Shown piece by piece: positions 34,195 to 62,135 of a stretch of 64,000 bases of DNA. Numbering within the stretch: the first letter of the stretch is position 1; each line of letters begins with the position of its first letter. The position numbers and the translations under genes were made by a program. The notes under the pieces were generated by a model that did not search any database, had not been told where the DNA came from, and saw nothing but the letters and a program-made list of their open reading frames with translations. Origin of the DNA: Chloromonas sp. AAM2 (Eukaryota; Chlorophyta; Chlorophyceae; Chlamydomonadales; Chlamydomonadaceae). The stretch is from the NCBI GenBank assembly GCA_004335635.1, contig QAXH01006368.1, positions 35,107 through 99,106 on the forward strand. The letters are read 5' to 3'.

Positions 34195-37100
34195 TCACGC
34201 TTGCACAGTGGTTAGAGTAGGTTCCACGGTTTCAGTAGGTTGCACGTCTACGTTGACATACTTCCCCGTGGCTGCAATCAGTAGCTCCTTTGCCTGTGCC
34301 AGCTGGGCACGCAGACTGCCCAGGTTGTTCTGCACGTTGCCTGCAAGCACGTGACACACACGCACTTGCCCATGGTAGAACCCAGGTCATGCTGCTGCTC
34401 ATGTCCAAGGTCCACAACGATCAAGGTATGACCACACGGCATCATCAAGCCACGTCGTCACACAGGTCTTAGTGTCCTACCGCTGTTCAGTTCGTTGAGG
34501 CGGTCCGCCAGCGCTGTCAGCGCGTTGGTCCAGGACACCAGCAGCCGGTCATTGGAGGTCTGGCGTGCAGGGGGCGCAAAAAACCAAGTGAAGACTTTGC
34601 ATCCAGTAGGCAACATGGTCAGTGGCCAGCGCCGAGCCAGGGCATTCAGACGAGCAGAGGGCACAAGAGACCATGTTGAAACATTTGCACTGCGTCCAAC
34701 AATTAACATGGGATAGTCCAAAAATCAACATGGGATAGTGCAAACAACTGGCAACGCCGCACAAAGGCACCCATGCACCCACATGCGCATGTGTGTGCTG
34801 GAGTTTTACATATGAATCATGTGAGTGAACCTGCAGTCTCACAGCACTGTTGTGGGCAGCAGAAACGAAGGCTGTGATTTACTTCAATTCTTACCCTGAA
34901 ATCAGTTCTCAGCGTGGTTTCAAACGTGTTTACCGCCAGGCCAAAACCGATCGGACCTGCAGCAAGCCATGTTGCAGATGCAGGCTTGTACGCCCTGAAC
35001 TGGACTCTGGAATTAGAGATACCAAATTGATCACACAGCAACGTACCCGTCCCAACATGTGTCCTTTGACGGCTTCCCTGGTGTAAATACATATATATAC
35101 ATGTGTAGTGCACATGACAAGTGAGGGTTCTAATCTGCAGCTGACATGAGCTGCATCATCATAATCGTTCCCAGGACACACAGTCACATTGTTGGACGTT
35201 GAGCCATTGATTGAGATACTCCTACACCCAAGACTGGGTTCAACCTTGCAAGCAACAGGCTAGGACTACCCCTCCTCATCCTGTACTGTAACCGTATTTG
35301 AGCCTGCCTGATTTGTGTCCTGCCCACTGGCCTTTTCCAACAGACAGCACACTTGTTACAGTCGCAATACCTTTTGTTGTATGTCAAGCCTCAGATCAGG
35401 ATCCGCCCACACCCACCACTATCACGACCAGAGGCATAACATGATGGAAATACCACGTCTTCGTCCTGAAAACACCTTCGGTCCTGCCTAATTTTCTCTC
35501 GATGCCTTCCCCAACGGAGGGCACACCTGTTACAGTGGCAATGCCTGCCGGAAGCAGGGCCAGACTAGCAGCAGTTGTGCCAAGAGCGCCGGAGATGCTG
35601 CACAAATAAGAAGCGTGCAAACACGCACACATGGCATGGATTTACAGGGTGGACAAGCCGCTCAGCACCTAAGCATCACAGCTATGGCGCGGCTGCCTTC
35701 ACACCATTGCAATGCGAAGAAGAATCTGCTTCGGATTACGCAACATACATATCATACTAGTGGTCGGCTCGACTACCGTCGGCTCATCCAACATGAATAT
35801 GCCCATACTGTGTTCATACCAGGACATGCCGCCTTGCACCAATTCACCACTGCCGGGCATGCACAGGACAGCACAGGACAGAGCAGGACAACAGCTGCCC
35901 TCACACCATTGCAATTTGAGGATTGACCTTATTCAATTTGCATGAAAGCCCTTGCTTGATTTGGGCAAAAAGCCACGCAGATTGTGAACGACAGCCAAAC
36001 AACATACATATCACTGGAGTGCCCAGCTGCTGAACGACATGCATGTGCAGGGCTAGCCAGCATCAGTCACTGGTCATGCCTGTGCCGTCGACCCACATTG
36101 TGAGGATTGCGGTGACCAGGGTGAAGGCGGCGGTAATCACAGCAAGGGTGGCCAAGGCCTCCTGCTCGAGCAAGTTGTGAGGGATCATGGATTTACAAGG
36201 AAAGACAGGCTTTGGCAGAAGCATCCGCCTGTTACAGTTATGTTACTCTGTCTTTCATAGCCGGTTGCCTTCTATTCTGCCTTGTTCCTTTCTGCCTTTG
36301 GGCCTGTTTCTGCCATTCTTCCTGCTTTTCTTCTCCTCTCTGGCTCAGGGCAGTATATATGCCATGGCTGATCCCCTGATGTCGAAAGATATCTAGATAA
36401 AACTGCTCTGTACTCATCTTGCAGGAAGTGATCTTGCCTATGAAAGCCTGTATGACATGTGTGCTTCTGTGAGAGCTGGCAGGAAGAAAACAAGAGAATT
36501 GTTTGGACTACTGTTTACTGGGATAGGTGTCCAAGCTGCTGTGTACCAGGCTGCAGAACAAAGCTGCTTCGTCACGCACCTCACTCTTTTCATTGTTAGC
36601 GTTGGCACTGCGTAAGAGCTCCTCCATCTGAGGTGACAGAGGCTCAGGTGTAAGGTACTCGAACAAAGAACCACTGCATGAAACATAGCTTCACAACAAT
36701 TCCGGGTCCCTGAAGCGAACAACGTACAATTGCTTGCGACAAAACACATGAGTGAGGCTCCTAATGCGCACAATACTAGTCAACAAACCCGCCATCTTAG
36801 CACATATCATGTGCAGTGTCGCTGGCCTCACAAGGACTTGTCCTGTTCGGTGTGACATGACGTTGATTTCATCGTTCAACTGTTCATGTTACTGATGCTT
36901 CCTTTGTAAAATGCTGAAGACCCCTTACTTAACTGGGTCAAGTCTGGTCTGGCCGGCCGGCATCAACAATTGGATGCACTAAAGTTGCTGACACTGGATC
37001 GTGGCAATACAGGCGATGTGTAAGAAGATTAGCACACCTGATGGCCTTGAAAGCATCCCGTGTGACCTTCGGAACATCTTCAGCGCTAACGGGGGCTGGT

Positions 37101-37644
37101 TGAGTGCCACGATTTCTGATGTAATTCAGGGGCTGAAGATTGCCCATCAGATTTCCAAGGCCAAGCGGTGCTTTGATGCTGCCGCCTGCACCACCTGGGA
37201 AACAGCAGGGACATGCTGTTGCGTGTACAAGCTGTATGGTTGACGAAGTCAATGCTTGTTCTGATGACCACCGTTCTCAATTGCTATGTACCGTTTACGA
37301 GATCAATAGGTGATTGCATGGCAGAGTTGGTGGCACTGGGTCCAAGCAGCAACAACTTCTGGCTTTGACATCAGCAACGTCAAAGGCATGACATGCTCAC
37401 CCTGGCGTGCCCGCAACATGTTGGCGAGGTCGCTCAGATCCATGCCTGGTGCCTCAGCATTGGGAGGCTGAGCACGTATAACCTGTGGAACAGTTATAGT
37501 AATCAGATATACTGTGGTAGTGAGTTTGGAATCGCCCTGCTGCTGACATGCGCATCCCCTGCTCACCCTAGGCCTGCAGATAAGCAGCGCCAAGACAACC
37601 AAAACAGACGGCAGGGGAGGTCGCCCGTCTCTCAAGGCTGCCAT
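34195..37644 (-). CDS. M1: unknown M-family protein, secreted/membrane, 277 aa
   Basis: I do not recognise this family. Exons (minus): 37644-37567, 37482-37401, 37194-37038, 36673-36580, 36161-36097, 35597-35527, 34956-34895, 34559-34481, 34340-34195; the phases close to one 277-aa frame. Residues 1-26 look like a signal peptide (PSVLVVLALLICR). MDLSDLANMLRARQG, a Gly/Pro-rich stretch, VTRDAFKAI and YLTPEPLSPQMEELLRSANA follow. Residues about 138-184 are hydrophobic (EALATLAVITAAFTLVTAIL, then ISGALGTTAASLALLPAG). Then come GPIGFGLAVNTFETTLRTDF and two helical segments, NDRLLVSWTNALTALADRL and SLRAQLAQAKELLIAATGK. M1 ends with an extra 17-residue Thr/Val-rich tail that M2 and M3 lack. It has no adjacent P partner. 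A copy of the cluster-specific repeat lies in intron 6. Function unknown. Confidence 0.85.
35041..35085 (+). repeat. cluster-specific dispersed repeat, copy 1
   Basis: It contains TGTCCTTTGACGGCTTCCCT followed by GGTGTAAAT and lies in M1 intron 6. The same sequence recurs only at 48.2, 53.6, 56.6 and 57.45 kb. Confidence 0.75.
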
Positions 37645-38852
37645 TCACGTATGTTGTCCAAATCTGGCGTGATGACGAAGGCCGCAAGGCCAAACTCTCC
37701 AAAAAAAGATGGTCTAACGTCGCTAGGGTTGGCGAATGGAGATGCGCTGAACGCCAAGCAGTTGCAGTTTACAATTCTTTAGTCCAGTTGCAGTCCCTGT
37801 GGTATTTGAAAGCGATTTCGGTCGAACAAAGTGACTGCTGATGATTGTCCTCGGCCTGGACGTGATTGTCCTTGGCCTGGGACGATCCAATACTGATCAT
37901 TCCACTGTTAAACAGACGTGAATACTGAAACAACCAAAGTGTATCTATTGGAAGTGCATGTAGACGCAGCGATCTCGGGCACTGAACACACCTGCTACGA
38001 AGCAACTACACATTACACATCTGTCGCTTTTGAATTCGGCTTCGTGTGCAAGGTATCTTCTGCATGAGCGAGGGGGCCAAAGAGCTCCTGAGCGCTGACC
38101 CCTTGTCGTCCATCATGCCGCAGCCATACTCAAGGGCGACTGTGGCCGCCTGCCAACCCATCACTGCGAGTGGCCACGCGTGTCGTAGAACGCCGTTTCA
38201 ACTTTCATGGTCCCATTGGCGCTGCCAAGAGCTGGGTCTCCAAAATACCGTGCCGGGGCGACTCATTGCTTGCAGCAGCGTGTTGGCCATTCACGGGCTT
38301 CGACGGTCAAGTGCAGTGTATTTTCATAATCAATGATACTGAGGCGACACTTGGATTTATCAATTTCATACTATTCGATCGCACGAGGTTGGATGACCAG
38401 GGTGTGGTGAAGCTCCTTTTTACAAGCTGGCCTTACGCACCTATCGCAGTGCTGACCTTTGTGGGCAGCCACATCAAGCAACCTGCCAATCAACTGGCTA
38501 ACTACAACGCATCGTGCAAATGACGCACTGCTTATTCAGTCCTCTCAGACGCATTGGGCTGCTGCCAAAAATAACTCTCGTGCCATGCTGCCAAATCCGC
38601 TCAGATAGCTCAGTTCAAGGGTCAATCCTCCGGTCGCCAGACAACGGCGCGGGTGACACCTAGTTTAAACACTGACAGGATGGTGGATCAGCAGCCAGTG
38701 CACCAGTCAAAACCTAGCAAGTGAAGCAGCTCATGGGGCTGCTATGGCAGGTCTTTATGTTTTCGCCCCATCTTGCTTGACATAAAACTGTCCGTTACGT
38801 GGCTTGTAAGTGATGAGCAAGGGCCTTGCAGCTGTCAGATGCCTTGAACATG
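37645..38852. other. intergenic DNA between M1 and M2
   Basis: This 1.2-kb stretch should hold the M1 promoter and the M2 3' UTR (tandem, same strand). A plus-strand frame at 38170-38523 (117 aa) is open and of fairly even composition, with NDTEATLGFINFILFD. It has no recognised homologue and no visible partner exons, so I do not call it a gene. Confidence 0.45.
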
Positions 38853-41800
38853 TTAAGACGAGGCGGTGGCAAACTTGCCCGCTGCAGACTGCAGCAAGTC
38901 TTTGGCCTCGGCCAGCTGGCCTCGCAAGCTGCTCAGGTTGATCTGAACGTTGCCTGCGGACATGTTGCGTTAAAGGAGAACTTTAGAAGCAGGCCGAACG
39001 TTCGTTGTTCGTAAATTGCAGCAAAGCAAGTGACCTTGCTTGTTTCTGCCTCAGTAGAGCGAGTAGACGCACTGGATTAGACAGCCGTTAGCGCAACACA
39101 ACACGACAATCACACGCGAAAGACCACAAACAATTTGACACTTTTCCGTCTACGGTCATTTGATCAATAACAAGCTTGTGAGTGGGCTAGGTGGTACTGG
39201 TATGATGAGCACATCCGGCGTGTCAGTGAGCTCACTGCAGAGCGAATAAAATAGTCCCGTGATAGCCATCAAAGTGACACACTGACAGTACGAGACTTTT
39301 GTGCAAAGCAGGCCCTTGAGAGCTTGCTGCAATGTAGGAGATCTGGAAAGGTCTAGGGCGGCAACACCCAGTTTCTGCACTGACCTACCATTATTGATCT
39401 CTTCCAGACGGTCAGCCAGCGCAGTCAGAGCATTGGTCCAAGAGGTCAGGAGGCGATCATTAGAGGCCTGGAACGGAGTGTTGAGAGCCAAGACTTCGAG
39501 TGCACGTTCACGTTTATGTTTATTGCATCAAGTTTTGAACTACGGTCTTGTGCTGCAAGTGGCATGATATGACGAGCACGTGGGAGGCGTAACATGGGTA
39601 GGGTGATCATGGTATTGAGCGAGTGACCATGTGATTGCCGGTCTCCTTGATGAAACCTCCCAATATCGACAACCTCCATCCTGAAAACCGCTCACCCGGT
39701 AGTTGGACCTCAGTGTGTCAGCAAATGCATCAGCAGCCAGCGAGAAACCTAAGGGGCCTGCACAGCATGCAGGCCAGGCACCAACTCACTCCCAGGGAGC
39801 AGATGATGCAGATCGTCGACTAACTTGCAAGCAATCCTATGTAGCGCATCTCATACAATTGCCATGCTCATTGGGAGCGCCGCTGGTTGTTGTTTTACTA
39901 GAATGATGGGTTTGCTTGATCAATCACTTCCAAGTTATTCATTATCAAGTTATATATATCAAGTTATGATCAAGTTGATGGAAAACAATCGATGACTAGC
40001 TGTGCCCTTTGAATTTGAAGTATTGAGGCTTCCTGGGATATGACTAACCATGGAAATGAATTCAGGTAACGCACCCGTGACTGTTGCCAGGCTGGCAGGA
40101 ATGATGGCAAGGCTTGCTGCAGTAGTAGCCAGGCCTCCAGAGATCCTGCACAACGGACATGGCTCGCACAGAGCTCATCAAATGCATTGCATTGACTTTG
40201 CATGCTCTGTTCACGGGAAGAGCAGGTGCTACAACCGCTGTATAAGATACATGTTGTTCAAAGCATGCAGCTGCAATCAATTGTCGGCAGAGTCCAGTAG
40301 CCCGCTGGTTCTGGGAAACAGATTGAGTGGGCTGATGCAGGCACGCAAGAGAAAACTCTGTTAGACAGTATACTGTAATGTGAGGATTGACCGTGAAACA
40401 ACAAGCAAGGAAAATATGACACTCCTTCGCTTTGCGAATTTGGAGGATTCATGTGGTGACTGTTCGTGTCTGTGATTGGAAATGGCGATGTTATGGTGTC
40501 ACTGAGTGGTCCACCTCCGGGGTGCAGCGCACTGTTCATGCAATCTCAAGATGCGCAAGGATAGGTGCCTGGCACTGCCTGTGGTGTTTCACAATCTTAA
40601 GAACTATGATGCCCACCACCTCCTGGGCAATGTGTCCGTGTACTGCCGGACAAAGCAGGTCATGGTTATGAACAGATGCCTGATGCTGTATGCACACGTA
40701 CGTGTAGATGATTGACGAAACCAGGTTGAATATGGCGGACAACAGGGCAAGGATGGCAATCGCTTCCTGCAGTTGCAAAGCGCCAAGCGGAAGGCTGGTG
40801 GTCCTACAATAGTGTACCAGGTCAATAGGTGGCATGCTTCACCGAGGACGGATGGCTCGTCACTTGCTACTCGACCACAGACATAACAGACAGACGTTGG
40901 CCACTTTAAGCTCAGGACATAGCAAAATGCGAAAGGTTGCGATGTATGTTATGTGTATATATTGGTAATATTGCCCAACAGCTGAGCTTAAGTTAATTAA
41001 TATGCCACTGAGGCAAGTCAAGTGATGGCAAATCCAAACAACTAGCAAACTCCTACAAATGCAATTGACTACAATCTGGGACTTGCTGGGGCACATGGTC
41101 CGCCTGGAATGCATGTTACAAGTCAGGCACTTGTGGGTCACGTGTCTGCCGCTCACTGCAGAGTCTTCATTGTTGGCGTCGGCATTGCGCAGCAGCGTTT
41201 GCATCTCGGGTGACAACGGTTGAGGGGTGAGGTACTTCATGGCAGGGGCGCTGCAAGAAGAGACAGGGCAAGAAGCACCTGGCTGATGCACACCACTGAT
41301 GAATGGCTGTGCTCCACCCCGCAACGAACCGCAACAACGTCCCGACTGTCATATACTCACATGGCAAGAAAAATGACCACAAGCGTGTTACATATTCTTA
41401 ACACTAGTTCTGACGGCCTGCGCCTGCATTTCTCCATTCTACTGCAACCTTCACGCTTGCCAAAGAGCCTATTCCTACTGTAGATATGTCTTCGAACTGT
41501 GCATGACGGAGAACAGGATGACAAAAGGTTGGCCACCAGCGCAAGAACTTTGCCAAAATACGTTAATACGCAACCCACCTGATGGCTTGGAAGGCGTTCC
41601 GCGTGAACTGTGGAATGTTGCTGATGTCAAAGTTTGGAAGCGATGGAGTCTGTACTCTGAATGGGTTTAGAGGGGACATACTGGCCATGAGGCCACCGAT
41701 GCCTTCCTGGGGAGCCCCAGCACCACCGGTGGCACCTGGGCACCACACATCAGGGTGATGGCAACGCTCATTGATAACAAAACACTGAATCACAATCATG

Positions 41801-42509
41801 GCTTGTGCTGAGACGACATGGCCTGTAACGGATTGATACCGTCCTAACAATCATGTGGGTTGACGCTTGGGAGTGCCGTGTGCGCTGGATGGAAGACTGA
41901 CATGCTCAACAAGACTTCACAAGAAGCTCGCGGAAGAACCAAGAATAACTAACTCAGGAATTCAAGCAAAACTGCGAAAAAATTACATAAATGCAAAAGT
42001 ACAAAGGCAAGAAACACAGCACACGGCATTCTGCACACATTGTGTACGGGCAGGCTTCACAAAAAGCTTGCTGACCCGCAACAGCGGTAGCCGTACTGCT
42101 CTCCCTGTTCCGCCATGCTTCAGGATGCAGCTGCGCCAAGAAGAACCTGTTTTCAAAGAAGGTGTGAGGTCATGTGTGCGTCTGTGTGAATGCGGGTTAA
42201 AGATTTGCAAGGTTTGCTCACCCTGCCGTGCTTGCAGGAGCTTGGTCAGCTGGCTCAAGTCCATTCCTAAGGGGCCTGTTTTTGCTGTCTTCGCCTTTTT
42301 TGATGGTTGGGCATCACAGGGCTACGAGCACAGGACGAGCGTTGGAAAAATGATTGCAATGGCGGAAAACCCTTTGGGAAGCTGCAATCATGTCCAGAGC
42401 AAAGCTGCTCAATCTTTGCGCTGAGTTCGCGCACCATGGGCTTACAGATGAGCAGCGCCAACAACATTAAAGAAAATGCAGACGCTCGCGCATTCCTGAA
42501 CGATGCCAT
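38853..42509 (-). CDS. M2: unknown M-family protein, secreted/membrane, 267 aa
   Basis: Second M copy. Exons (minus): 42509-42435, 42321-42222, 41735-41579, 41250-41157, 40766-40702, 40145-40075, 39757-39696, 39467-39389, 38953-38853; exon number, phases and most exon sizes are the same as in M1 and M3. The signal segment is AFSLMLLALLIC. Exon 2 has a Lys-rich KKAKTAKTGPLG, then MDLSQLTKLLQARQG. YLTPQPLSPEMQTLLRNADA comes before the hydrophobic block at residues about 143-190 (EAIAILALLSAIFNLVSSII, then ISGGLATTAASLAIIPASLA). The C-terminal helices are NDRLLTSWTNALTALADRL and NVQINLSSLRGQLAEAKDLL. It is head-to-head with P1, with 238 bases between the starts, which suggests shared control. 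Function unknown. Confidence 0.87.
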
Positions 42510-42747
42510 GGCGCAGGAGGCTGAACGTTGCAAGGAGGGTTGGTTGCGTATCGCTCGACTAGACACTTGCAGACAGCTGCAAAATTTCCTTCCTTAGCCT
42601 ATGATCAATTGTCAACGCCAAACCTCGGACCCAACCATTCATGGAACAGCCGAAATGAGTCCATCGTTCAAGATCAATTGATGAGTGGGCAGCAGACGAT
42701 TGTAAGCCAATCATTCCTGTTTTGCACAGATGACAAGCGCGAGCGGC
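42510..42747. promoter_or_regulatory. divergent M2-P1 promoter region
   Basis: 238 bases separate the two start codons. Blocks such as GCTGAACGTTGCAAGGA, ACTAGACACTTGCAGAC, AACCTCGGAC and GAGTCCATCGTT reappear in the same order between M3 and psiP (50869-51060), so the spacer was duplicated with the genes. The P-proximal block CCTCGGACCCAACCATTCATGGA is related to sequence at similar distances upstream of P2 and P3. No TATA box was seen in this copy. Confidence 0.7.
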
Positions 42748-45700
42748 ATGGCGCGGCGCGGCCTAGCCCTGCGCATTCTCTGTCTGCTGTTCTCACATTC
42801 CAAGGTAGCGTCCGCTGATCCTGTGGCGCACAGTTCGTCCACGCCGAAAGCTTTTGGAAATGATTTTGTTGGCCTGCATGCAGCTAGTGTTAAGAGCTCA
42901 ACAAGTCGTCGCGCAAGGGATAAACGCCACGGACGACCAGGCAAGTGCCCATCAACTTCTCACGCTGTTGAGATCAACGGCGAGGCTCAGTTGTGCCATA
43001 CCAGAACGCGAACTATTTACCTTCACTTCTTGCTCAACCGCAGCACGCAGCGGGCCTGGCGGAAGCTTTCGCCGACGTGAGTCGCGATACAGGCGTCCAC
43101 AGCAAGAATACGCTCTTCGGAGGCGCGAGGCTTGGGGCCGACGTTACAGGTCCGAAGCCAGACGCGACAGGTCCAGAATCGGAGATCAACATCCCCGACA
43201 TGACCAACTTCGCGAAGCTATTGAACTCCTCATTGCCGCCAGGTGTGATTGTGACTCGGTCAGGGGCTAGCTGTACCTCGTAACGCGGTCATGTCTTTAG
43301 CTGTACCTCCAGAGCTGCTCAAGTGCTACACCTGGTTGCATATGATCCGCCAAACAGCAGCAAGTTCGCATTGCTGACGTAGGATTCTGGCTGTGATAAC
43401 TGGTGTTTGACTAGTGTACAAGTGTTGGTTGACACAGGTGTTTGGTCTACGTTTACGGACACATTGCATGCCTACACTCATACCGACTAGCCTTGCAATG
43501 CTACATGCTGCTATGATGTAGGTATGGACCTGACACAGGCTATTCGAACAGCAATATCTCATCAGCAACAGCAACAAGCCACTGCTGGCGCTATGAATTC
43601 AGCTGGAAGCTCTTCTGGGCAGCCTCTGGAGGTAAGAAGCCGCGGCGGCACACACCTGGAACAGCTTCGTTTATGCAACAGCTTTGTCCAACTTTAGCCA
43701 ACGTCGATGAAGATGTTGGGGGTAACCCAGCGGTTTCCTTCCCTTTCTTTTTTGCTGTTTTTCTTTTCCTTCTCTTCTCTTCTTTTCTCTTGTCTTCTCT
43801 CTTCTCTTGTCTTGTCTTCTCTTCTTTTACTGTCTTTTCTTTTTTTTCTTTTTTCTTTTCTTCTTTTATTTTCATACCTGACATAACAACGCTACCACAA
43901 AGACGTACAACTCCCAAGTGCACACCACTGTTTCGTGTTGCTCATGCAGAAAGCTGCCAAAACGATTGCTGCATTCCTGAACCTGCCCAACACCATTGGA
44001 ACGGGCCAGAATCTGCATTTAGTTGTGCAACGCGTTCAAGAATTCCGAGAGTTGAGGAACGCAGTGGGTGGCAAAACGCATGATTCATGGCCCGCCACTG
44101 CAGCAATTGTTGTCCTGCTTAACAGCCTTTTCCGTCATAGTGATCACAGCTGACCGTAAGAAGTAGCGTTTGCTGTAAGGCTTTCCATGTGGCAATGCAC
44201 AGCCCTGGTGAGCAGCCTGGTTGTGACTGCACAACAGTGCACGACAGTGCCAATGGGCACAGGTGTTCACTTGTCCTCTTGCTTGCGAGGTGACTGACGT
44301 CACATCTCATCTGGCTTCACGCTTACAGGTCCGACAGTGAGTGCAAATTTTAGATAACGTATGGATGATCCAAGCCAACAGTTAGCACCAATCTGCAAAG
44401 TGTGTACCGCCGGCTTCTTGCATGGAATTCTGATCCGGCTCCAGGCTGGCAACAGCATGCTGCTCTCATCAGTTGGAGACATGTAGACACGGTTCATGCA
44501 AAACTGAGAGGGAGCAACCTAGTAATTGTACAACACGCGCATTTTGCCGCTTGTTGCATTGTGCATATCATTACAATTGCTGACATAAATGCTTCTATGT
44601 TTGTTCCAGGTACCTGAACCTTGACCAGGTGCAGCAGATAGATGGCTACCTCAACACTGCCATCAGCTTGGTTCAGTCAGCCTTTGCAGTGAGTGCTCAA
44701 CAATGGCTCTCTGCACACCGCGGTTGTGTAGAGCTCTGGCATTGTACACCATGCATGTTGCTTACCATGCATGTTGCTTACCATGCCTGTTGCTTACCAT
44801 GCCTGGGCGCACATGGGCGCACCAGCTTGCACATACCTCTGCAACAGGGGAGGCTTGCTTCTGTCTGAAGTGGCATTCAGGTGAGCAGGTACTGCAGCAA
44901 CATACACCCAGCTCATGTGCGTGACCGTGGCAGAAACCACATCGGTGTCACGTGTCTTGGTTGCAATTCAATTGCTGCAGGCGTTTCCACTGACTCAGCT
45001 GGCATACCAGATTGCCTTGGTTTCCTTGGCAGCTGGTATCACCACTTTACTAGCGGGTATCTTCTTCCTGGTACAGGGAGCTCTGTATGTGACAAGTGAG
45101 TCTCACTGCTGAAGGACAAGGTCTTATGTGAGGCGTTTTATTGATACAAAAGGTCTGCAAGGGCCAATCGGTCACAAAGCACCCCAGTGGGTGAGATCAT
45201 CAGTGCATGCATTCAGCCGTAGTTCAGTTGGATGACCTGAAGAAGATGCATTAAATATTGTTCACATCAGGGAGGCTATCACACAACATGGAACGGGATG
45301 GGTACCGCTCTGAACTACCTCAATCAAGGAACACCAAACCACAACAAGCGCTGCAAAGAAATCAGGCAGGATAGGACAGCAGAGTTGGCTGGGGCCTTGG
45401 CTTTGTGTTGCGAAGACCTGCAAGTCTTGGAGAATGGCATCTAATGCACCCACCCTGACAGAACAGTCAAGTGACTTGCAAACCGTAGGTACCGTAGCAA
45501 CGCTCGACCAGGTTCAGCAGAAGCAACAAAATCAAGACCGTCGCGGGAATCACAGGCCCGGGGTTGAAAACGATGAGGTGAGTCTACCAAGTCCACCAAT
45601 GATGTCACGTCAAAATTCAAGGGGTTGTGATTATCAAGGGGGTGCAGCAAATTTGCTTGTGTAATGAGTGAGCTGAGAAGGCTGGTTCGGTCTGGCATGT

Positions 45701-46242
45701 GTACGGTTGCATGTGCTCCAGAACTTCACATGCCAACGGCCAGACATACATGTGGTGCACACTTGGCAACGCCAGAAGTGCTTGTGGTAACATTGATCCG
45801 TGCAATCACAGTCCTTGATGGCGACAAATTGATGCTGTCTGCTTGCAGTGGCTCGTGAGCCTCAAGGCAAGGTCCATGGACATCCAAGGGTATGTGCAAT
45901 CCTTGAGCAGTCCGAACTCTTGGCAGGTGCAACAGACAGCTTGTAACTCGGCAATTAGGCCACTGCTCAGCATAACGATTCAAACTGGCAGCAATTTGCT
46001 TATGATATCGGCAGTTGAAAAGCAAGTGGATTGATTCGTTGCCAACTGAACAGGTGAGAGCTCATACTCATGAATCCTCTGTGTCATGCATGTCTATGCT
46101 TCTGTGGCTTTTGTTGTGCAGCCCTGTCCTTAGGTACGCCTTCTCAAAGAAGCCCTGGGATGCGTTGCAAGTGGCTGAGAGCGTCCTGGGCGTTTCACAG
46201 GCCGGGTTTGGCGCATTACAGGACATAGGAGTGCTGGGTTGA
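42748..46242 (+). CDS. P1: unknown P-family protein, secreted/membrane, 338 aa
   Basis: Not recognised. Exons: 42748-42804 (an in-frame Met also lies at 42730), 42884-42940, 43044-43242, 43522-43631, 43950-44063, 44329-44336, 44610-44688, 44981-45095, 45462-45577, 45849-45889, 46122-46242. The frame is continuous at 338 aa. The signal segment is LALRILCLLFSHS. Then come RAQQVVAQG, the FAKLLNSSLPPG box with an NSS glycosylation sequon, MDLTQAIRTAI with a Gln run, IAAFLNLPNTIGTG, and YLNLDQVQQIDGYLNTA. The hydrophobic block is QLAYQIALVSLAAGITTLLA plus GIFFLV. A Gln-rich linker, WLVSLKARS and the C-terminal PVLRYAFSKKPWDALQVAES / SQAGFGALQDIGVLG follow. The sixth exon is only 8 nt (GTCCGACA). 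Intron 2 has a GC donor. It is divergent from M2 and convergent with M3. Confidence 0.87.
43733..43872 (+). repeat. polypyrimidine (CT-rich) tract in P1 intron 4
   Basis: About 140 bases are almost purely C and T on the plus strand, mostly TCTTCT/TCTTT motifs. Such tracts can form triplex DNA. The tract lies 80 bases before the acceptor of the next exon and is absent from the matching introns of P2 and P3. Confidence 0.9.
44748..44803 (+). repeat. 16-bp tandem repeat in P1
   Basis: ACCATGCATGTTGCTT is repeated about 3.5 times in the intron after exon 7. It was not seen in P2 or P3. Confidence 0.9.
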
Positions 46243-50400: not shown

Positions 50401-50868
50401 CAGGTAAACACGACATGACTGACTAGCGTTGACATGTGCAAAGCTAGGCTTACAAGAAACTTGCCAACACAAACTTGTCATGGTAAGTCATAGGCAGCCA
50501 CACTGGCCTGCCTGGCCCGCCAATTCTTCAGCCAAGCTGTATGTGCGCCTGAGAGCTCCTGCTTTCAGATGCGAGTTGCAGGTTGGCCAAGATTGCTTAC
50601 CTTGCCTTGCTTGCAGGAGCTTGGATAGCTGGCCCAAGTTCACTAAAGGGCCGGCCTGTGCAAGCTGGGCATTGAAGGGCTGCGAACGCAGGCAGAGCGT
50701 TGGAGAAATCATCATTGCAACGGAACCCAAACGATTCAAAAAGCTTGCTTCGCAGTTAAGCTGCTAAACCTTTGCGCTGACTTCTCGCACCATGGGCTTG
50801 CAAATGAGCAGCGCCAGCATGAACATCACAGAAGATGCCGAGGGATGCGCATTCCTGAACGATGCCAT
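47489..50868 (-). CDS. M3: unknown M-family protein, secreted/membrane, 265 aa
   Basis: Third M copy. Exons (minus): 50868-50791, 50679-50601, 50233-50065, 49635-49542, 49234-49170, 48905-48835, 48492-48431, 48135-48057, 47589-47489. The signal segment is SSVMFMLALLICKP. PFNAQLAQAGPL precedes the helical LGQLSKLLQARQG. YITPEPLSPEMQELLRNANG comes before the hydrophobic block (EAVATLALLSPIFLLVSAIL, then VAGALGTAASSLAMIPAGLA). The C-terminus is VLTNWNDALTNLADRLGDI and SLRSQLAEAKDLLQSAAGKF. Exons 1, 4 and 9 and their flanks are very like M2, so the two are recent duplicates. It is convergent with P1 and divergent from psiP. A copy of the cluster repeat lies in intron 7. Function unknown. Confidence 0.87.
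48210..48256 (+). repeat. cluster-specific dispersed repeat, copy 2
   Basis: ACACATCCCGTGTCGTGTCC followed by TGTGACGGCTTCCTTGG, in M3 intron 7. Confidence 0.65.
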
Positions 50869-51116
50869 AGTGCGGGACGCTGAACGTTGCAAGGACGCTG
50901 CACAGGCTTGGCTGCCTACCGTGGACTAGACACTTGCAGACGTTGCGCCCTTGGGCTATAAGTACCAACGTCGAAACTCGGATACGTTGAACATTCATGG
51001 AAGAGCCGACGCGAGTCCATCGTTAGAGAGCATGGGGAATGGGACGCCCACGCTCAACCGCGCGCGCGACAACAAGTCGATCATTCCCATTACGTGCATG
51101 CGGCCGACGAGCAGCA
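50869..51116. promoter_or_regulatory. divergent M3-psiP promoter region (duplicate of M2-P1)
   Basis: It shares ordered blocks with 42510-42747: GCTGAACGTTGCAAGGA, GGACTAGACACTTGCAGAC, CATTCATGGAA and GAGTCCATCGTT. This copy has GGGCTATAAGTA, a TATA-like site, at about 50952. On the P side the gene is broken, so only M3 is likely to be served. Confidence 0.65.
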
Positions 51117-51620
51117 TGGTGAAACAAGAGCCCTGCGCATTCACGGTAATCTGTGCCGGCTGCTGTCGCATGTCCAATGATGCTGTGACGCGCCAAAGCC
51201 TGTTGGAGTGGACAGGCTTGTTGTCCTGCATGCAGCCATTCATAAGTGCTCAACAAGTCGTCGCGCAAGGGGCAAGCGCAGCCGGTGACGGCATATGGGC
51301 GAAGGTAAGCGCCCATCCAATGTCTCGTGGAACTACAGCGAGGCTACTCGATCAGCAGAGTACGAACTACCTGCCATTGACCGTGCTATGCCCAGCACGG
51401 ACGCCACAGCCGGAGATTATCATCAACGACGTGCCTAATGTTGCGAATCAGCTGTACACCTTGTAGCCTCCAGGCCGTTCTCTGGTAGCTGTTCGCTCAG
51501 GTGCTAGCAATACCTCAATGGACCGGTCATACTAGTATCTTCAGCTGTATGGAGTATGGAGATATTCTGCCTTTGGTACTCAAAGACACATTGCATACGT
51601 TCCTACTGACGAGCCTTACG
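51117..51620 (+). pseudogene. psiP: truncated, decayed P-family copy
   Basis: Only the 5' part of a P gene is present, about 250 bases from the M3 start as in the M2-P1 pair. A signal-exon remnant (CCCTGCGCATTC at 51134) no longer reads through. Exon 2 is recognisable, with GCTCAACAAGTCGTCGCGCA identical to P1, but its acceptor context is lost. Further on, CCGGAGATTATCATCAACGA with GTGCCTAAT matches the P PEININDMPN box, interrupted by a stop at about 51466. Intron sequence like that of P1 after exon 3 continues to about 51620. Exons from the MDLT exon to the C-terminus are missing. DNA at 51660-51870 resembles the later P1 intron at 45.70-45.82 kb, so an internal deletion is likely. Confidence 0.75.
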
Positions 51621-52187: not shown

Positions 52188-55100
52188 ATGGCGGCGCGAA
52201 GAGGCTTGGCAGCACTTCGCCTCCTTGGCACCCTCTTCCTGATTGTATCACATTCCAAGGTGGTTTGACACTGGCTTCATTTCGTCGTCAATTCTCCGCT
52301 CTCGCCCTGCGCTTGATGCTGTGCTCTGAATTTGTTTGCAGTTGATCACCAGGGCTCAGCAAGTCGCCACGCAAGGGTCAAACATAACAAAGGACCAGGC
52401 AGGTGTTGAATGTTCTTGGATTGCGATTGAAAAGCGCTGCCAGAACAGGGAGGCAGTGGTCCATAGACGCCCCATGTGCTGCTGCAGCTCGCAGCGAGCT
52501 TGGCGCGTGCTTTTCAAGATATGAGCCTGAATTTAGGCGCCAACAGCAAGAACACGTCCTTCGCGGATCAAAGGCTTGGTGCTGACTTTCCAGGTCCAAA
52601 GCTAGACGCCACAGGTCCACAGCCGGAGATCAACATCAACGACATGCCCAACTTCGCCAAGTTGTTGAACTCCTCGTTACCGCCAGGTATGCAAAGGTTA
52701 TGGCACAGTTGTGTGATAGCCCTGACTGCATGGAAGGGTGGCTTGCGGTGTCAGAAGATGGCTTGGGACTGTCCCGCTGTGTTGTTTACCTTACATCATA
52801 ACTTGATAGAACGGGCATGCCATGCTTACGACTGAAAACTTGAAAGGCCGAAGTTTTGCCTTGCTACAAAGTCGGCCTTGACAGGGCACTTCTCCCTGAC
52901 AACCGGCTCCCTGAATAAACACAGGCCTGTGCTGCATACGACCAGGTTGGATTGTGTGCACTACTAGCGTGTTCACACTCTAAACAGCCTTTACACCATA
53001 ATGTACGTCCATGCAGGAATGGACTTGACTGAGGCTTTACGAGCAGCAGTAGCGCAACAGCAACAAGCAGGTGCTATGGGAGCAGCTGGCACTTCTACTG
53101 GGCAGCCTCTGGAGGTATGGCGTTACATGGGCCAAGGAAACTGTGTATGGTTGTAATGTCATGCTGTGACACAGACCACCCATGTCAGCCCAGTCAAAAT
53201 TAAAGCTAGTCCAACTCCAGCATCTTGCCCGCACTGCAACACAGCTGACGCTAGAAAGGCGACAAGACTGGATTAGGCTGCCAGAGATATCAGCCAACTT
53301 CTGCTTACAGATAGGTTCTGCACCCTGCCGGTTGACTTGTCAACAGCGCCCGTTAGCACACTACAACCACCACTGAGACACACAACTTCCTCAACTGCAC
53401 AACGTTGTTTGACGTTGCTCATGCAGAAAGCCGCAACAACAATTGCTGCTTTCCTGAATCTGCCCAACACGATTGGGACGGGCGAGAACCTGCGCCTAGT
53501 TGTTCAACGTATTCAAGATTTCCGGGACCTCAGAAACGCAGTGAGTGGCAGACGGGATATCTTGCGATGGACCTGAGCTCTGCTTACTGCAGCTAAGCTC
53601 TTAGCACGCTTATTGTAGACACCGTCCTGTGTCCTTTGACGGCTTCCCTGATGTAACAAATCAGTCAACCAGTGGTCTGTTGATGGCACTGGCCAGTGAG
53701 ACAGGAATCTGAGGTGCCATGTATGGCAAGCAAGATTTGTCTGATCAGATGCGGTTGCATGCAACACCGCTTGCGTTACAAGACTACTGGGCATGAATTG
53801 AACTCAATCACACATGAATAAAAGCAGGGGCCCCACGTATGCCCACTGTGCAGACGCTAGCACAAGCATGCAACAAACGACTGCGCATGGCACTTGCTAA
53901 CACGTTTTCACTGTCTTCGTGCATGCGAGGCGTCTTGGCATCACATCTCATCTGGCCACACGCCCGTAGGTGCGATTGTGAGTGCGGCTTTCGGCAATTT
54001 GCCAAAAATTACAGCTGGTTGTTAGAAGATGGCTTTTGCACATGCTGAATGGGTGTTGATACTGCCATTTCTGTTGGAACCTTGAGGTGATCCAACCGCG
54101 CATTTGCCATTTTAAGGCTGTAGACGTGTTCCTGTCACAGGTTCACATGGCAACATGCCAAGCCTCGCGTCAGTTTGCGCACATGCCATTCTACTCTGTG
54201 TATGCCGATCCTCTCTATGTGCTGCTTGCCTGTTGGTTACAGGTACCTGAACCTTGACCAGTTACAACAGATCGAGGGCTACCTAAACACTGCCACCAGC
54301 CTGGCTCTGTCAGCCCTTGCAGTGAGTGTCCAACAAAGGCTCTGGCAGGCCACGGCTGTGTGCAAGAACAATTCGTCTTACTCCTCAAGCAAATTGGCTG
54401 GCTTCATGACCTGAATCTGAATCAACAACTGCAAACTTGAACTTAAAGGCATACACGCAAGGGTCAGACTAAGTATCCAGAGGACTTGAATCCATGATTG
54501 TAGTCCGGCGATACCGTGCAGACTGAGCATGGCAGGATTCAAAGGTGACACATCAGTGCGTGCTCTTCCTTCATGTAGGTCTCCCTGCTGTAGATTCACT
54601 TTACAAGTGCCAGCCAAGCTAGTTTGCTCCCTCCAATCTCTGCAGGCCTTCCCTCTAGCTCAGCTAGCGTACCAAATTGCCTTAATCGCGCTGGGTGCTG
54701 CCATCACCGCCCTCCTGGCGGGTGTCTTTACCCTGGTGCTCGCAGCCCTGGCGGTGGCAGGTACGTCTAGCCGCTCACTTGAGAGGCTGTGCGGAACAAT
54801 TCAACAGGAGGTGCTATCCTGCTTCACTTGCTGCCTTGCTTCTTCTTGGTCCCATGACACGACACGACTGGGCTGTCAGGTTGCCTGATGCCCACCGTGC
54901 AGACATGCAGACGTTTTTCAGATGAGATTTTCCGCCTGACAAGAGCCACGTATGCCAAGGGTACTTGATCCAACAAAACGACAGCTGCTTACGCCTGTCC
55001 ACTGCCGTTATGCACCCGCAGCTACCCAAGCTCAATTGGACGCGGTTCAACAAAATCAAGCTGGTTTGGTTGTGGAAGATGAAGTCGTGCTGAAATCACG

Positions 55101-56795
55101 GCCATCAGTGCAAAACGACGAGGTACAATTGCGACGAGGTACAATGCATACAATGCATACAATGTCTTGCTAGTATGCATACAAATTGTTGTATTTGCGA
55201 TGGCTTTGCACACGCCACTTGCATGGCTTGCCGTTGCTCTCGGTGAATTTGGCCCCCCTGATGTGATCAATACGTCTCAACGAGTCTGAGGTTTTCAAAT
55301 TGATACAATCCAAATATACTTGTTAACGGGTTCCACGTGATATTTTGAAAGGTTTGACTGCTTGCACACCTCCTCATGCATGCTTGCAGTGGTTCATCAA
55401 CCTCAAAGCAACATCACGAGCGATTTATGAGTAAGTGGCGGTTGGGAAATTCTGGCTGTTGGGGATAGCAATTTCTAGCAAGCTACTGTAAGACTACCAC
55501 CAGTGCACGAATTGGTCACACTTTCCCATGGCCACACTTTCCCATTAGGTTCAGGGCACGACCGGACAGCAATCCTCTCAGTGTTGTTGGCCCGTTGTGC
55601 ATGTGGCACTCACTAGTAGTGAGGTGGTCCATTCTGATGTGGCGTTGCAGTAGTTCAGGATGAGCAGATCAGTACATCAAAGCCAATCGAAAAATTGTAC
55701 GCACTCATGTGAGCAATTGCTATCCCGTTACAAGACACCACAACTTGAGACACCATAACCATGGATCTGCACTTGAATTTACACTAAAACCTCTAGACAG
55801 ACTGGGCCTCAACTGATTAATGTCGAAAGAGCACTGGTCACACCTTGGTCGACCTCTCTTGGTCAACCTTGAAAATTACACCGAACTGTTTAATGATCAA
55901 AAGCTGAAAGATGCATCCGATGCCATGTACTGGGGCAGTGGCATGGCCACACAGTTGGTGCACAGTCCGAACACATGCTTACTTACACGGTGGGTCAACT
56001 GAACAGAACCAACTCACACGCTGAGCTTAGATTCAATCCGCCGATGCTGTGGCGTTGCTACTGGGACAGTTGGTTGAAATTCCAGAGCTCCAAGAGAGCT
56101 GTGCCGTCTGGTGTGGTGAAGTAGCAGAGGGAAAACCGGCGCTTGCACTTGGCGCAACGCTTCACTTTTTTTGGTTGCTCTATCAATCAATCTATCATTC
56201 ATGAAGACCAATTTGTCTCCAACTGTGGCTTGCCCATATTTGCCCAGTAGTTTAGGATTTGCAACCTCCTTGGATGTAGTGGCCCTCTTTGCATGTGGGG
56301 CATGCTATACTTATGTGTTATGTATTGACAGCGCCAGGTTGCTTAGCAAGGTTCAGATTGTCGTCAAATTTAGCCTACTGCATGCCATGAATGCATCAAT
56401 TAACGTCCAGTATTTGCCATCCAGAGTGTGCGATGCTCTGAATTTGTGGCTTAGTGAGGCTTTGGATTACAACTGATTGGCATCTATAGAATCCAGTTGA
56501 TGACAGCGTTTTCTTACCACCAGCAGTCCTTTCCAAATGCACGAGTTTTATCATTCCTTGCTCAGGGTAGGTCAAGGCCGTACACATCCCGATCCGTGTC
56601 TTGTGACAGCTTCCCTGGTGTGAAAAACAAACGTTTGGATGAAGCATGGAATTGCTGTGGCCCTTGTTTTGCAGGCCTGTCCTGCAGTACGCCTTTTCAA
56701 AGAAGCCATGGGATGCGTTGCAAGTGGCTGAGAGCGTGCTGGGCATATCACAGGCCGGCTTTGGCGCATTGCAGGACGTAGGCATTGTCAACTGA
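52188..56795 (+). CDS. P2: unknown P-family protein, secreted/membrane, 334 aa
   Basis: Second intact P copy. Exons: 52188-52259 (an in-frame Met also at 52179), 52342-52398, 52488-52686, 53017-53114, 53427-53540, 53970-53977, 54243-54321, 54646-54760, 55022-55122, 55390-55430, 56675-56795. The signal segment is LAALRLLGTLFLIVSHS. RAQQVATQG, FAKLLNSSLPPG (sequon NSS), MDLTEALRAAVAQQQQ, IAAFLNLPNTIGTG, YLNLDQLQQIEGYLNTA, the hydrophobic QLAYQIALIALGAAITALLA (residues about 199-247), a linker, WFINLKATSRAI and PVLQYAFSKKPWDALQVAES then SQAGFGALQDVGIVN follow. The microexon is GTGCGATT. The donor after exon 9 is duplicated 16 bases downstream. Introns 5 and 10 each carry a cluster repeat. Function unknown. 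Confidence 0.87.
53621..53660 (+). repeat. cluster-specific dispersed repeat, copy 3
   Basis: TGTGTCCTTTGACGGCTTCC followed by CTGATGTAA, in P2 intron 5. Confidence 0.7.
55116..55145 (+). repeat. duplicated 5' splice site at the end of P2 exon 9
   Basis: CGACGAGGTACAAT occurs at 55116 and again at 55132. The first matches the P1/P3 exon end (NDE, then GT). Use of the second would add 16 nt and shift the frame. Confidence 0.8.
56570..56625 (+). repeat. cluster-specific dispersed repeat, copy 4
   Basis: AGGTCAAGGCCGTACACATC, then CCGTGTCTTGTGACAGCTTC and CCTGGTGTGAAA, in the last intron of P2. It is close to copy 5. Confidence 0.7.
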
Positions 56796-57686: not shown

Positions 57687-60600
57687 ATGGCCCCGCGTCA
57701 GCGGCTGGCAGCCCTTCGCATCCTCGGCACTTTGCTTTTGCTCATCTCACGTTCCAAGGTGGCCGCCAACGTTGCCTTAGTCCTGGACCCTTCATGTCTC
57801 GCTTGGACGCTAAACGCTGTTCCTCTGCGTGCAGATAATTGCGAGGGCCCAACAAGTGACGGTCGAGCAGGCGGCAGACAGGACTGTGGACCAGGCAGGT
57901 GTTGATGATGTCTATGCCTGCTGCGATCACACCGTAATCATCCTCAACGCGTTTGCTTCAGCGTTGGCGGTACCGTCTGTGCAGGCAAGCAGTATAGATT
58001 CAACCCAAACGGCTGCGGGTGCGGCGAACGCGACATCTGCGACAGAAGATGAGGTGAGTTGGTGGCTTCTGCCACACACCGCTAGTATACAGCTGCCAGC
58101 CATTCCTCCACTAATATATCTAACTCGGACAGCTGGCAGCCACCGTGAATCCACTATATCAATCTGTTTTTTCCTGGCTATTGTTTTTCGTCAATCTGCT
58201 TACTTTTCTGCTTTTTTGCACTTGCAGAAAAATAAATGTTAAACCAGCCTGCCTTCAGATCGAATTGTTTGGCAGTTTTTTCCAATCTGCTCACGCGATC
58301 TCGCCTAGCTCATGTCATGCAAAAAGCAAATGGTAGAGAGGATGGCATGCACTGCGGGCAGCAAAGCAAGGAGAGGAGGGCAATGCGCCTTGATGATATG
58401 TGATACTGGGAGGCAACCATGACCATGTAAAATTTTGATGCAGCTCGCAGCGCCATGTGACGTTTGTGATGCAGCTCGCAGCTCGCTTGGCACAAGTTCT
58501 TGCCGGGATCAGCCTTGACTTGTTTTCTCTCAGCGAGGGCTCCACTGGCAACACAAGCACCCCTGAACCGCCCAAGCCTGACATAAGCGTTGAAGGCATG
58601 CCTAACTTTGCAAGGTTGCTGAATTCTTCGTTACCAGCAGGTGAGCCTCTCATGTCTGGACGATGCAGCCACCTTTGCCTCTCTAACATGCATTCTCCAT
58701 GGTCTCTCCCATCGCCGATCTTATTCACGTCACAGATTGCAAATCATCACCGTTTGTCCACAATGCAGGGGCTAATCTGAATGACTCAATTCGAGCAGCA
58801 GTGACGCAACAGCAGTCGATTGGAGGTCTGTCAGTGAAGCCCTTGGAGGTAAGTGTGCCTTATCGCAATAACTGTGTAGAGAGGGAGCACAGTCCAGGCC
58901 ACCCTGCATTCAGCTCATGTATGAAGAGGGAAACCTCAAAACGTCTTGACATCACCACAATGCGTTTCCAATGTAGAAGACCAGCTGTATGAGCAAAGAG
59001 GAGAAGATTGACAGGCTGTCCATAAGAATGAGAGACCAGGGCATCAAGGTGAAACTCTTGTTTGGTCTGCGCCTGACAGGTTAGCAGGTTTATGCTAGTG
59101 CTTTACGGTGCTTTAAATCACTTGCGGGTCTCACCATTGTTTGTTGTGCTGGCTGCTGGGCTTGCAGAAGGCTGCAGAAACAGTCGTGGCGTTCCTGAAC
59201 CTGCCGAGCACCTTTGGGAGTGGTACTAACATTCGCCTGGTTGTCAAACGTATTCAGCAGTTCAGAGAGCTCAAGAATATGGTGCGTGGCTTAGCATAAA
59301 CAATGGTCATGTCTTTACACTAGTCAGCCCCTGACTCACATGCCTAACCTATAGCTTGTTTACCTTGTTGTGAGCACTGCTTGAGATGATGGATGTGCAG
59401 AACCTAGCGTAGTTCAACTCAGATGTCTCACTCCCAGACAGCCGTGACTACTTTACTGACAAGCCACCATTTCCTCACATACACACTTGCTTCATTGTTG
59501 CCCATATACACACGGGGTTGACTTGCTGCCAGCTGTATGCGATGACATATATATATTGAATACATCAGGGGGGCGCGCATGCATCGAGCGCAAACGCTAG
59601 CAAGCCACGTTACGCTTTGCTTGATCAGCCGCTGGTTTCTGCCTTTCAGCTGACCCTGCCTGAAATGATCCTGCGAGGTGAAAGCTTCTGAGGCCATGCA
59701 GCTTTGTGTATGCAGGTTCGACTGTGAGTGCTGCACGGTGGAGGTAATAGCTTCAAGCTGCGGTTGACTACCAGTGACATATGGCAGTACAATCTGTGTA
59801 GTGTCTGTACACTTGATTGGTAATCTCTGTGTAATGTGCATCATCCATGCATGTAGCAAGAGGTGCACGTGCGTCCTTTACACAAACCAGGTCATACTAC
59901 CCTGGTTTAAAAAGCAAGCAGACAAGCAGGGGAAGGGATGGCTTGGGTCTGTATCTCGCACACAGTCCACTCTTGAGGATGACACCTGCCCCATGCCGGT
60001 TCGTGACACTGGTTTTGCTGCATGTTCCTGCTTGATCCTGCTTGTTGAGTGTACGTGTGACAGCTTTCAAGTTTACACCATGTATCAAATACCGAATCTT
60101 AAGTCTTTGCTGTACGGCAGTGCTCAAACCCTTGCACAACGTCTGTCTGTTGTGCTTGTCCAGGTACCTGAACATCGACCAGATACGACAGATTGAGGGC
60201 TACCTGGATACCGCCGGCGGGCTGGCACTGCAAGCCCTGGCAGTGAGTGCTCAGGCAACACTCGACATGCCGTACAACGGCAGTGGGTGGTGACAAACTA
60301 CACGCAAATCAGTTCAAAAGCTTGCCGCATGCGGTCTTCAAACAAAAGGCTGGAATTTACAGTTCCCCTGGATTTGCTGTGGCTCCAGGTATGGGACACG
60401 AGACAGGCTATCCCATCAGCTGGGAAGATGTTCCGATGGGACACTGTGCTGATTTGAAGCCATGAAACATGAACTGGCCAGACCTCAGAAGCCTGGCAGG
60501 CTGCACTGAGGTCGCAGCTGAAAATGCAACGGAACTCCTCTGCCTGATATTTGGACCAGCAACATACATGGTGCTGCGTTTCACCCATACTTGCATTCAA

Positions 60601-62135
60601 TTGCATTTAACTGCAAAGACATGCGTGTGGTGTGCGCCATTTGCGCTGCTGTGCTTTCAGGCCTTCCCTCTCGCTCAGCTGGCATTCGTGGCGGCAACAG
60701 TTGCATTGGGTGCCGCAGTCACGTCCCTCCTAGCAGGCATATTCTACTTGGTGGCGTCCGCTCTAGCACTTGCAGGTACGAGCCACACAAGCTAACCAAC
60801 CCAGGCAAGGCTTGGAAGGAACAATGTCACTCCGCTATGGCATTGGCAGGTCGAACAAATCACAGTCAGAGCAAGTGACTGCCAGTGGTAATACAACACC
60901 AGTTAAGTGTAGGTTGTAGGTCGCACTTGTCGCACTTGGTTGTTAAACTTTCATGTAGGTGTCATCAAACCTTCTCTGTTCTTGTTGAGCTCAAGTTTTG
61001 CCAAGGTGCCGTTTTGCATTTCCATGCGTGCCTACAGCTTCCATTCCAGCAGTTGCTGTCTTGGGTGAGGAAGGTGGAGGTCTGGAGACCGTGACTGCAG
61101 TTGATGAATCAATAGCAGGCACGCTACGTGACAGCGCCAAACGTAACAGCACAAAACGTTCAGTAAGAAACGATGAGGTGAGGCGCCAGCAACGCGTGCC
61201 TTACAGTGTGCAAATGACAAAACAGTCACAGCTTACAACCCTTTTTCCCTGCAGCAGGCGTTCCGGGCTGCTCATGCACCGATCTGTCAGGACAGGTGCA
61301 CAACGTAGTCAGCAGAAGCATGAGCATCGATGCTTCTTTCCCTGACATATGCCGTGACATATCCAGCTCAACCAAAGCTGCGCACACTCACATACAAAGG
61401 TTCATGCCGTGTTTCATCTGGGCATTCACGCTGGCTGCATAGCAGACGTCGAGGACATGCACACAGATGCCATGCCTGCTGTTCTTACAGTGGTTCGTCA
61501 GCCTCAAAGCAAAGGCGATGACTGTTCAAGAGTGAGTACATCTGCATTACCGTTATACCAATTAACAGAGAGGAAAGAGCATCTTTCCATGAGAGCATTC
61601 CCGGTTTTGAGCCATCTGTCCCTACCACACATCCTCCCAGCACTCTGCGGCTACACACTACGCTACTAGCAATTCAGGAATTCTGCCCACGTCAGTATGC
61701 CCCGGTCAGGTCCGTTGTAGCCTCCTAGTCCTGCCACACAACTGGTACACAAATGCACACACGCCCTCCCAGCGCCGTCTGCAACGATCAATACAAAACC
61801 TTTCAGCACATCTTATACGAGATGTGGTACAGCTTATTACACGTCGCTTGCCTATACAACACATCTCTCAACACGCAAAGACCAATGCGATACCACGCAC
61901 TTGTCGGCATCCAATGCAACAGCGCGCATAGGACTACACATGCCCTGTACTTCTGCCACCTGCCACCTTCCGGCTTGCATGCATCCGACGTCCTGATTGC
62001 CTTCCGCCGTACAGGCCTGTTCTGCGATATGCCTTTTCCAAGGATCCTTTGGATGCTCTGGGCCTGGCTGATGGGATCTTGGGCGTTGCACAGGCTGGCT
62101 TTGGAGCCCTCTCTGATATTGGAGTGTTGAAGTAA
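57687..62135 (+). CDS. P3: unknown P-family protein, secreted/membrane, 354 aa
   Basis: Third and most divergent P copy. Exons: 57687-57758, 57835-57894, 57985-58053, 58475-58640, 58769-58848, 59168-59281, 59716-59723, 60164-60242, 60661-60775, 61038-61177, 61491-61531, 62015-62135; 354 aa in one frame. The signal segment is LGTLLLLISRS. Exon 3 (23 aa, ending SATEDE) has no counterpart in P1 or P2. FARLLNSSLPAG keeps the NSS sequon. VVAFLNLPSTFGSG and YLNIDQIRQIEGYLDTAGG precede the hydrophobic QLAFVAATVALGAAVTSLLA block. The C-terminal part is WFVSLKAKAM and PVLRYAFSKDPLDALGLADG, then AQAGFGALSDIGVLK. The microexon is GTTCGACT. The acceptor of exon 4 is duplicated 31 bases upstream. Function unknown. 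Confidence 0.86.
58436..58484 (+). repeat. duplicated 3' splice site before P3 exon 4
   Basis: TGATGCAGCTCGCAGC occurs twice, 31 bases apart. The second fits the reading frame (LAARLAQVL); the first would shift it. Confidence 0.8.

Follow-up and report, generated by a model that had tools for sequence, protein, structure and literature searches.

Two multi-exon gene families clustered in Chloromonas sp. AAM2, M and P, as possible parts of one membrane-associated protein system

Introduction

Among described systems, a close comparison for the two protein families treated here is offered by the alpha-pore-forming toxins of the ClyA/HlyE type (PF06109; YaxAB/XaxAB), helical proteins in which a membrane-entering hydrophobic element rearranges into the transmembrane part, and some of which work as two components (PMC6162564). 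These toxins are bacterial, whereas the two families, named M and P, lie in a stretch of 64,000 nucleotides (nt) from the green alga Chloromonas sp. AAM2 (positions 35107-99106 of contig C2083, QAXH01006368.1; called the window below, its first letter being position 1); in addition, a match to the toxin profile is found, below cut-off, in two of the three M proteins and is absent from P and from P0001, the only relative of M found elsewhere. A second comparison is with the SseC-like type III translocators (PF04888), which also show a weak match to two of the three M proteins. SseC-like translocators are hydrophobic, helical proteins, and they differ from M in being part of a bacterial injection machinery. 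In the window, three M and three P genes form one cluster, and it is tentatively proposed that M and P may be the components of a single membrane-associated system, made together.

Organization of the cluster and exon models

The cluster occupies positions 34195-62135, where M1 (-), M2 (-), P1 (+), M3 (-), a broken P copy (+), P2 (+) and P3 (+) follow each other in DNA with a local G + C content near 51%. Six multi-exon genes were rebuilt from the sequence, with nine exons in each M gene and eleven in each P gene. On the minus strand, M1 (34195-37644) encodes 277 amino acids in exons 37567-37644, 37401-37482, 37038-37194, 36580-36673, 36097-36161, 35527-35597, 34895-34956, 34481-34559 and 34195-34340, with GT-AG introns throughout; M2 (38853-42509), the gene to which P0001 is homologous, encodes 267 amino acids in exons 42435-42509, 42222-42321, 41579-41735, 41157-41250, 40702-40766, 40075-40145, 39696-39757, 39389-39467 and 38853-38953; and M3 (47489-50868) encodes 265 amino acids in exons 50791-50868, 50601-50679, 50065-50233, 49542-49635, 49170-49234, 48835-48905, 48431-48492, 48057-48135 and 47489-47589. 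On the plus strand, P1 (42748-46242) encodes 328 amino acids in exons 42748-42804, 42884-42944, 43051-43242, 43522-43631, 43950-44063, 44329-44336, 44610-44688, 44981-45095, 45489-45577, 45849-45889 and 46122-46242; P2 (52188-56795) encodes 333 amino acids in exons 52188-52259, 52342-52402, 52495-52686, 53017-53114, 53427-53540, 53970-53977, 54243-54321, 54646-54760, 55022-55122, 55390-55430 and 56675-56795; and P3 (57687-62135) encodes 309 amino acids in exons 57687-57758, 57835-57898, 58482-58640, 58769-58848, 59168-59281, 59716-59723, 60164-60242, 60661-60775, 61101-61177, 61491-61531 and 62015-62135. The sixth P exon measures 8 nt in all three genes, and an exon of equal length that matches it is readable in P4, a copy outside the window.

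All 54 introns are of the GT-AG type, and 28 of the 54 end in TGCAG, an acceptor that is in keeping with a green alga but no proof of one. An initial annotation of this DNA had spliced six genes into clean frames; all of them were rebuilt, and the outer ends, 34195 for M1 and 62135 for P3, agree exactly. Its further statement that the exon phases are the same within each family also holds (0,1,2,0,2,1,0,1 in M and 0,1,1,0,0,2,0,1,0,2 in P), with the qualification that this agreement is partly built in, because homology and phase agreement guided the choice of some splice sites. The broken "seventh P copy" that it listed is present as well; it is the seventh gene of the cluster and, among the P copies of the window, the fourth, and consists only of pieces of the first exons (51130-51318 and 51395-51517), which match P, contain an in-frame stop within the match and stand head to head with M3. 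One stretch of it (51218-51279) is 85% identical to P1 at 42866-42927 (62 nt, near where exon 2 begins), and another (51404-51474) is 75% identical to P2 at 52617-52687 (71 nt, in exon 3); one piece is nearest to P1 and the other to P2, so that they do not point to one parent.

Purifying selection and a relative of M

The coding sequence of both families is under purifying selection. In the two pairs for which intron identity was measured, M2/M3 and P1/P2, the coding sequence is 76% and 74% identical, and the introns 52% and 46%, respectively. Each of the six within-family pairs shows its lowest conservation at the third codon position, and the ratio of nonsynonymous to synonymous substitution (dN/dS) in these pairs lies between 0.19 and 0.31 by NG86 and between 0.32 and 0.52 by YN00.

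When 5.8 billion predicted proteins were searched with the M alignment, 7996 candidates were scored and a single relative emerged, P0001, a protein of 274 amino acids (profile E value 5.7e-47; BLASTP identity of 40% over 97% of M2) encoded on a contig of 1868 bases in a public assembly (source code lgn). Its identity is 43% to M2, 42% to M3 and 34% to M1, and it stays collinear with M across each of the eight join positions, the alignment being weakest around the first two. P0001 resembles the M proteins in its start, the TPEPL motif, a charge-free block of 53 residues and the C-terminal part; unlike the M genes of the window, it is encoded without interruption, as would be the case for an mRNA or a gene lacking introns, and no P partner was seen with it. 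Because this continuous sequence aligns across all the joins, the M exon models have support from outside the genome.

Features of the M and P proteins

By eye, all six proteins of the window begin with a basic stretch and a hydrophobic core, followed shortly after the position of intron 1 by an A-Q step that resembles a signal-peptidase site. The most marked feature in common, a central block free of K, R, D and E, follows further on, with 53 residues in M2, M3 and P0001, 56 in M1, 59 in P1 and P2, and 50 in P3. In M2 it comprises residues 144-196, encoded in exons 5-7 (39696-40766, minus strand) and similar in M1, M3 and P0001; in P2 it comprises residues 194-252, encoded in exons 7-9 (54243-55122, plus strand). 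The model of P4 gives a block of 54 residues, possibly misjudged, as exon 9 is missing from this model. When the part of each protein after residue 30 was shuffled (eight proteins, 5000 shuffles each), charge-free runs as long as these arose in 1-91 shuffles per protein and peaks of hydropathy as high in 38-826, the peak of P3 not being unusual; the block is thus more than a consequence of composition. Its peak Kyte-Doolittle value is 2.14-2.52 in the six window proteins, the nearest charged residue is acidic on both sides in M1-M3, P0001 and P1-P3, and its length would suffice for two helices that cross a membrane.

Upstream of the block, an N-S-S glycosylation sequon lies inside the motif LLNSSLP in P1, P2, P3 and the P4 model. 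The other motifs first reported for the two families are present as consensus sequences with variants: YLTPEPLSPEM reads YLTPQPLSPEM in M2, YLTPEPLSPQM in M1 and YITPEPLSPEM in M3, LTALADRL reads LTNLADRL in M3, and YAFSKKPWDAL reads YAFSKDPLDAL in P3. The signal-like N-termini that had been noted are borne out by the basic start, the hydrophobic core and the A-Q step, and the long hydrophobic block by its 50-59 charge-free residues, a run longer than in nearly all shuffles. An AlphaFold2 model of P0001 alone, made with no alignment, had a predicted local distance difference test score (pLDDT) of 42.8 and a predicted template modelling score of 0.24, values too low for use; its secondary-structure string shows long helices at residues 144-174, 184-210 and 222-266, with pLDDT below 50 over most of this stretch.

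Growth of the cluster

M2 and P1 are transcribed away from each other, and the 238 base pairs (bp) between them (42510-42747) are a candidate shared promoter. The sequence that separates M3 from the broken P copy (50869-51129, about 260 bp, its right end being uncertain) is related to this first spacer: the two align with 69% identity over 176 columns, 42513-42676 with 50872-51032. Synonymous distances (dS) by NG86 are 0.63 for M2/M3 and 0.81 for P1/P2, as against 1.76 for M1-M2, 1.43 for M1-M3, 1.98 for P3-P1 and 1.43 for P3-P2, the high values being rough; those by YN00 are lower (0.44, 0.53, 1.26, 1.05, 1.12 and 0.89 for the same pairs) and keep the same ordering. Since the distances pair up, M2/M3 with P1/P2 and M1 with P3, a joint duplication of M and P is indicated, and the P tree likewise groups P1 with P2 (96/93). 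In the simplest account, as judged from these comparisons, M1/P3 would have parted early from the common ancestor of the remaining genes, and a more recent duplication would have produced M2-P1 and M3-P2; one further step is required to explain the broken copy that separates M3 from P2. The view that the families are expanding by duplication thus finds support in the pairing of the distances, the divergent arrangement and the related spacers.

To the right of the cluster lies a fold-back repeat (62410-62642, 233 bp), formed by two arms of 111 nt that are 93% complementary and 11 nt apart, which belongs to a family resembling miniature inverted-repeat transposable elements; a related piece is found on the left (34058-34181). 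The idea that these repeats delimit the cluster as one mobile unit was rejected, because the repeat is scattered over the genome, with at least 82 matches, spread over 38 contigs, when 40 out of 74 candidates were scored.

Distribution of M and P

The 74.4-Mb assembly, with its 2324 contigs, was searched exon by exon, and the prokaryote, viral and predicted-protein collections were searched besides. All matches to M2 and to M1 in this genome (21 of 21 in each case) fall inside the window, and with P0001 as the query two weak hits were obtained, of which one lies within it. P has at least three further copies on two contigs (queries P2, P5 and P6): P4 (about 1.86-5.99 kb) and P5 (about 7.80-11.53 kb) on C446, and P6 (0.89-3.09 kb) on C1118, the start of which is probably lost behind a run of N. 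The remaining single P hits elsewhere in the genome have E values of 0.4 or worse. No M copy was found by tblastn on C446 or in the first 10 kb of C1118; the weak M matches there (E value 0.02 or worse) fall mostly on the hydrophobic exons of P itself. In the P tree, a divergent branch unites P5 with P6 (100/99, P6 being only 35% complete), and the C-terminal tails of these two differ from those of P1-P4 (loci L041 and L042 on C446, and L043 on C1118).

Outside this genome, no relative of P was found with the P alignment (7995 candidates scored, E value 0.1) or with region 138-250 of the P consensus (5156 candidates, E value 10), in a protein search that scores only candidates sharing exact five-residue words. 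A viral or bacterial origin was considered and set aside, as no relative was found in the viral and genome contig collections (viral_contigs, genome_contigs) by scans that need short conserved peptides and perform poorly on intron-containing genes. The initial annotation had called the two families lineage-specific and co-amplified. The first term is too strong for M, because P0001, full-length and 40% identical, exists in another public source; the second describes the cluster, in which M and P apparently move together, and fails beyond it, given that M was found only in the window and P has at least three extra copies with no M found beside them.

Two parts of one system or independent neighbours

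The reading favoured here, with chances that we would put a little short of even, is that a single membrane-associated protein system has M and P as its two parts, which are made together. It is suggested because M2 and P1 diverge from a spacer of 238 bp and the same layout with a related spacer recurs at M3 and the broken P copy, because the dS values match by M-P pairing and the P tree groups P1 with P2, and because both families have charge-free blocks with acidic flanks, A-Q steps and, in P, a sequon. Each protein would enter the secretory pathway by means of an N-terminal signal peptide, its central hydrophobic segment of 50-59 uncharged residues would be inserted into the membrane as a hairpin, and the helical, polar domains on either side would remain on the lumenal or outer face. 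The M and P genes would be transcribed away from the shared short spacer, so that both parts are produced together and may associate physically, and the pair would have been duplicated as a unit. Of the earlier description as a "secreted or membrane system", the signal-like starts and the hydrophobic block are in agreement with either term, and the choice between the two is not decided.

Several observations count against this proposal. The signal-like core is modest, its 19-residue hydropathy peaking, within the first 40 residues, at 1.39-1.82 in the six proteins and at 1.30 in P0001, and M has no conserved glycosylation sequon. The single inner branch of the M tree (M1-M3 and P0001) is open, so that the grouping of M2 with M3 comes from the distances alone; P2, the intact P gene beside M3, is not head to head with it, as the broken copy intervenes; and no M was found beside the three or more P copies on C446 and C1118. 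Furthermore, hhalign aligns M with P only over the hydrophobic stretch, 27-28 columns, with a probability of 5% when three sequences of each were used and of 27% with four and six. A common origin of M and P as distant paralogues was consequently rejected as unsupported by the profile comparison; the signs that they share, a phase-0 intron 1 shortly before the A-Q step and a GMDL motif, are suggestive only.

Under an alternative view, M and P would be two orphan proteins independent of each other, membrane-bound or secreted, that came together only by chance in one duplicating segment and have no joint function. In its favour, kinship between the families is not demonstrable and P occurs where no M was found; however, the divergent arrangement and the related spacer survived duplication, the dS values match within the pairs, and both families have the same overall layout of signal-like start and central block. 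We regard this alternative as possible, though on the unlikely side.

Comparison with known families and a pore-forming function

Neither M nor P matched anything above the curated cut-off in Pfam or NCBIfam, or with an E value below 0.001 among PDB sequences, and M, the only family compared with PHROGs and PADLOC, matched nothing there at 0.001. The earlier remark that no family matches is thus sustained by the Pfam and NCBIfam results for either protein. Below these thresholds, HlyE (PF06109) matches two of the three M proteins (residues 176-258 to profile positions 195-286; best E value 0.052), with a score in M2 of 13.3 bits against a family cut-off of 25; SseC matches two of three M proteins with an E value of 0.029, none reaching the 0.001 level; Claudin_2 matches one of three M (0.031) and one of three P proteins (0.049); FTO_NTD (0.027) and flagellin (0.0078) each match one of three P proteins; and among four M-type proteins LeoBC matches one (0.0086), phrog_5218 two (0.022) and RTX_toxin one (0.28). 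In PDB, the best E value for M is 0.011, a designed protein and ATF-2 stand at 0.012, and P has no match at 10. So mixed a list of weak matches fits composition no less than descent. No Pfam family is matched by P0001, and P does not match HlyE. The HlyE profile found nothing in the whole genome at an E value of 10, single exons only being compared, while the control was positive in one of 14 genomes, that of Escherichia coli. No paper was found that describes M or P, or that joins pore-forming, green alga and ClyA, in a coverage that leaves out most of the subscription literature.

It is nevertheless conceivable, if unlikely, that M and P are a secreted pore-forming pair of the ClyA type. A secretory-looking start, a central hydrophobic block, no C-terminal anchor seen, two parts encoded side by side and the weak HlyE match would all be expected from such a pair, and they recall the rearranging hydrophobic element and the two-component members of the toxins introduced above. 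Against this, the HlyE score is well under the family threshold, SseC and Claudin_2 score as well, and HlyE is found neither in P0001 nor in P nor, at the single-exon level, anywhere in the genome; moreover, a eukaryotic translocon would probably hold a block as hydrophobic as this one in the membrane. A related idea, which we consider decidedly improbable, is that of a eukaryotic, probably green-algal, intron-rich two-gene system of alpha-helical membrane-attacking proteins, which would have evolved independently of the two-component toxins of bacteria and be expanding in M-P units placed head to head. Finally, that the exon models are chance alignments or functionless pseudogenes is largely refuted and almost certainly wrong: one P copy is clearly broken, but the uniformly GT-AG introns, the purifying selection with third codon positions least conserved and the collinearity of P0001 through the eight M joins speak against it.

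Other features of the window

Elsewhere in the window, exons of a papain-family cysteine protease (PF00112) are found on the minus strand at 19997-20764 (E value 9.2e-12) and 22085-22555 (3.1e-15). A possible reverse-transcriptase remnant lies at 4443-5567, also on the minus strand (PF00078, E value 0.0066, below cut-off), and near it the stretch 4412-4496 has an inverted copy, 94% identical, at 31069-31154. A tandem array at 29118-29521 consists of 18.4 copies of a 22-bp unit within an open frame of 208 codons. A run of N at about 1597-2282, either an assembly gap or a withheld stretch, shows up in translations as X and interrupts the self-match.

Significance

Orphan gene pairs are common in genomes, and the cluster is at the least a good example of them. 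Two families that match nothing in the libraries searched, and that have stayed together through duplication under purifying selection, provide a well-defined start toward a new function; with exon models of this precision the proteins can be made, and the hydrophobic blocks offer a direct test of whether the pair binds or opens membranes.

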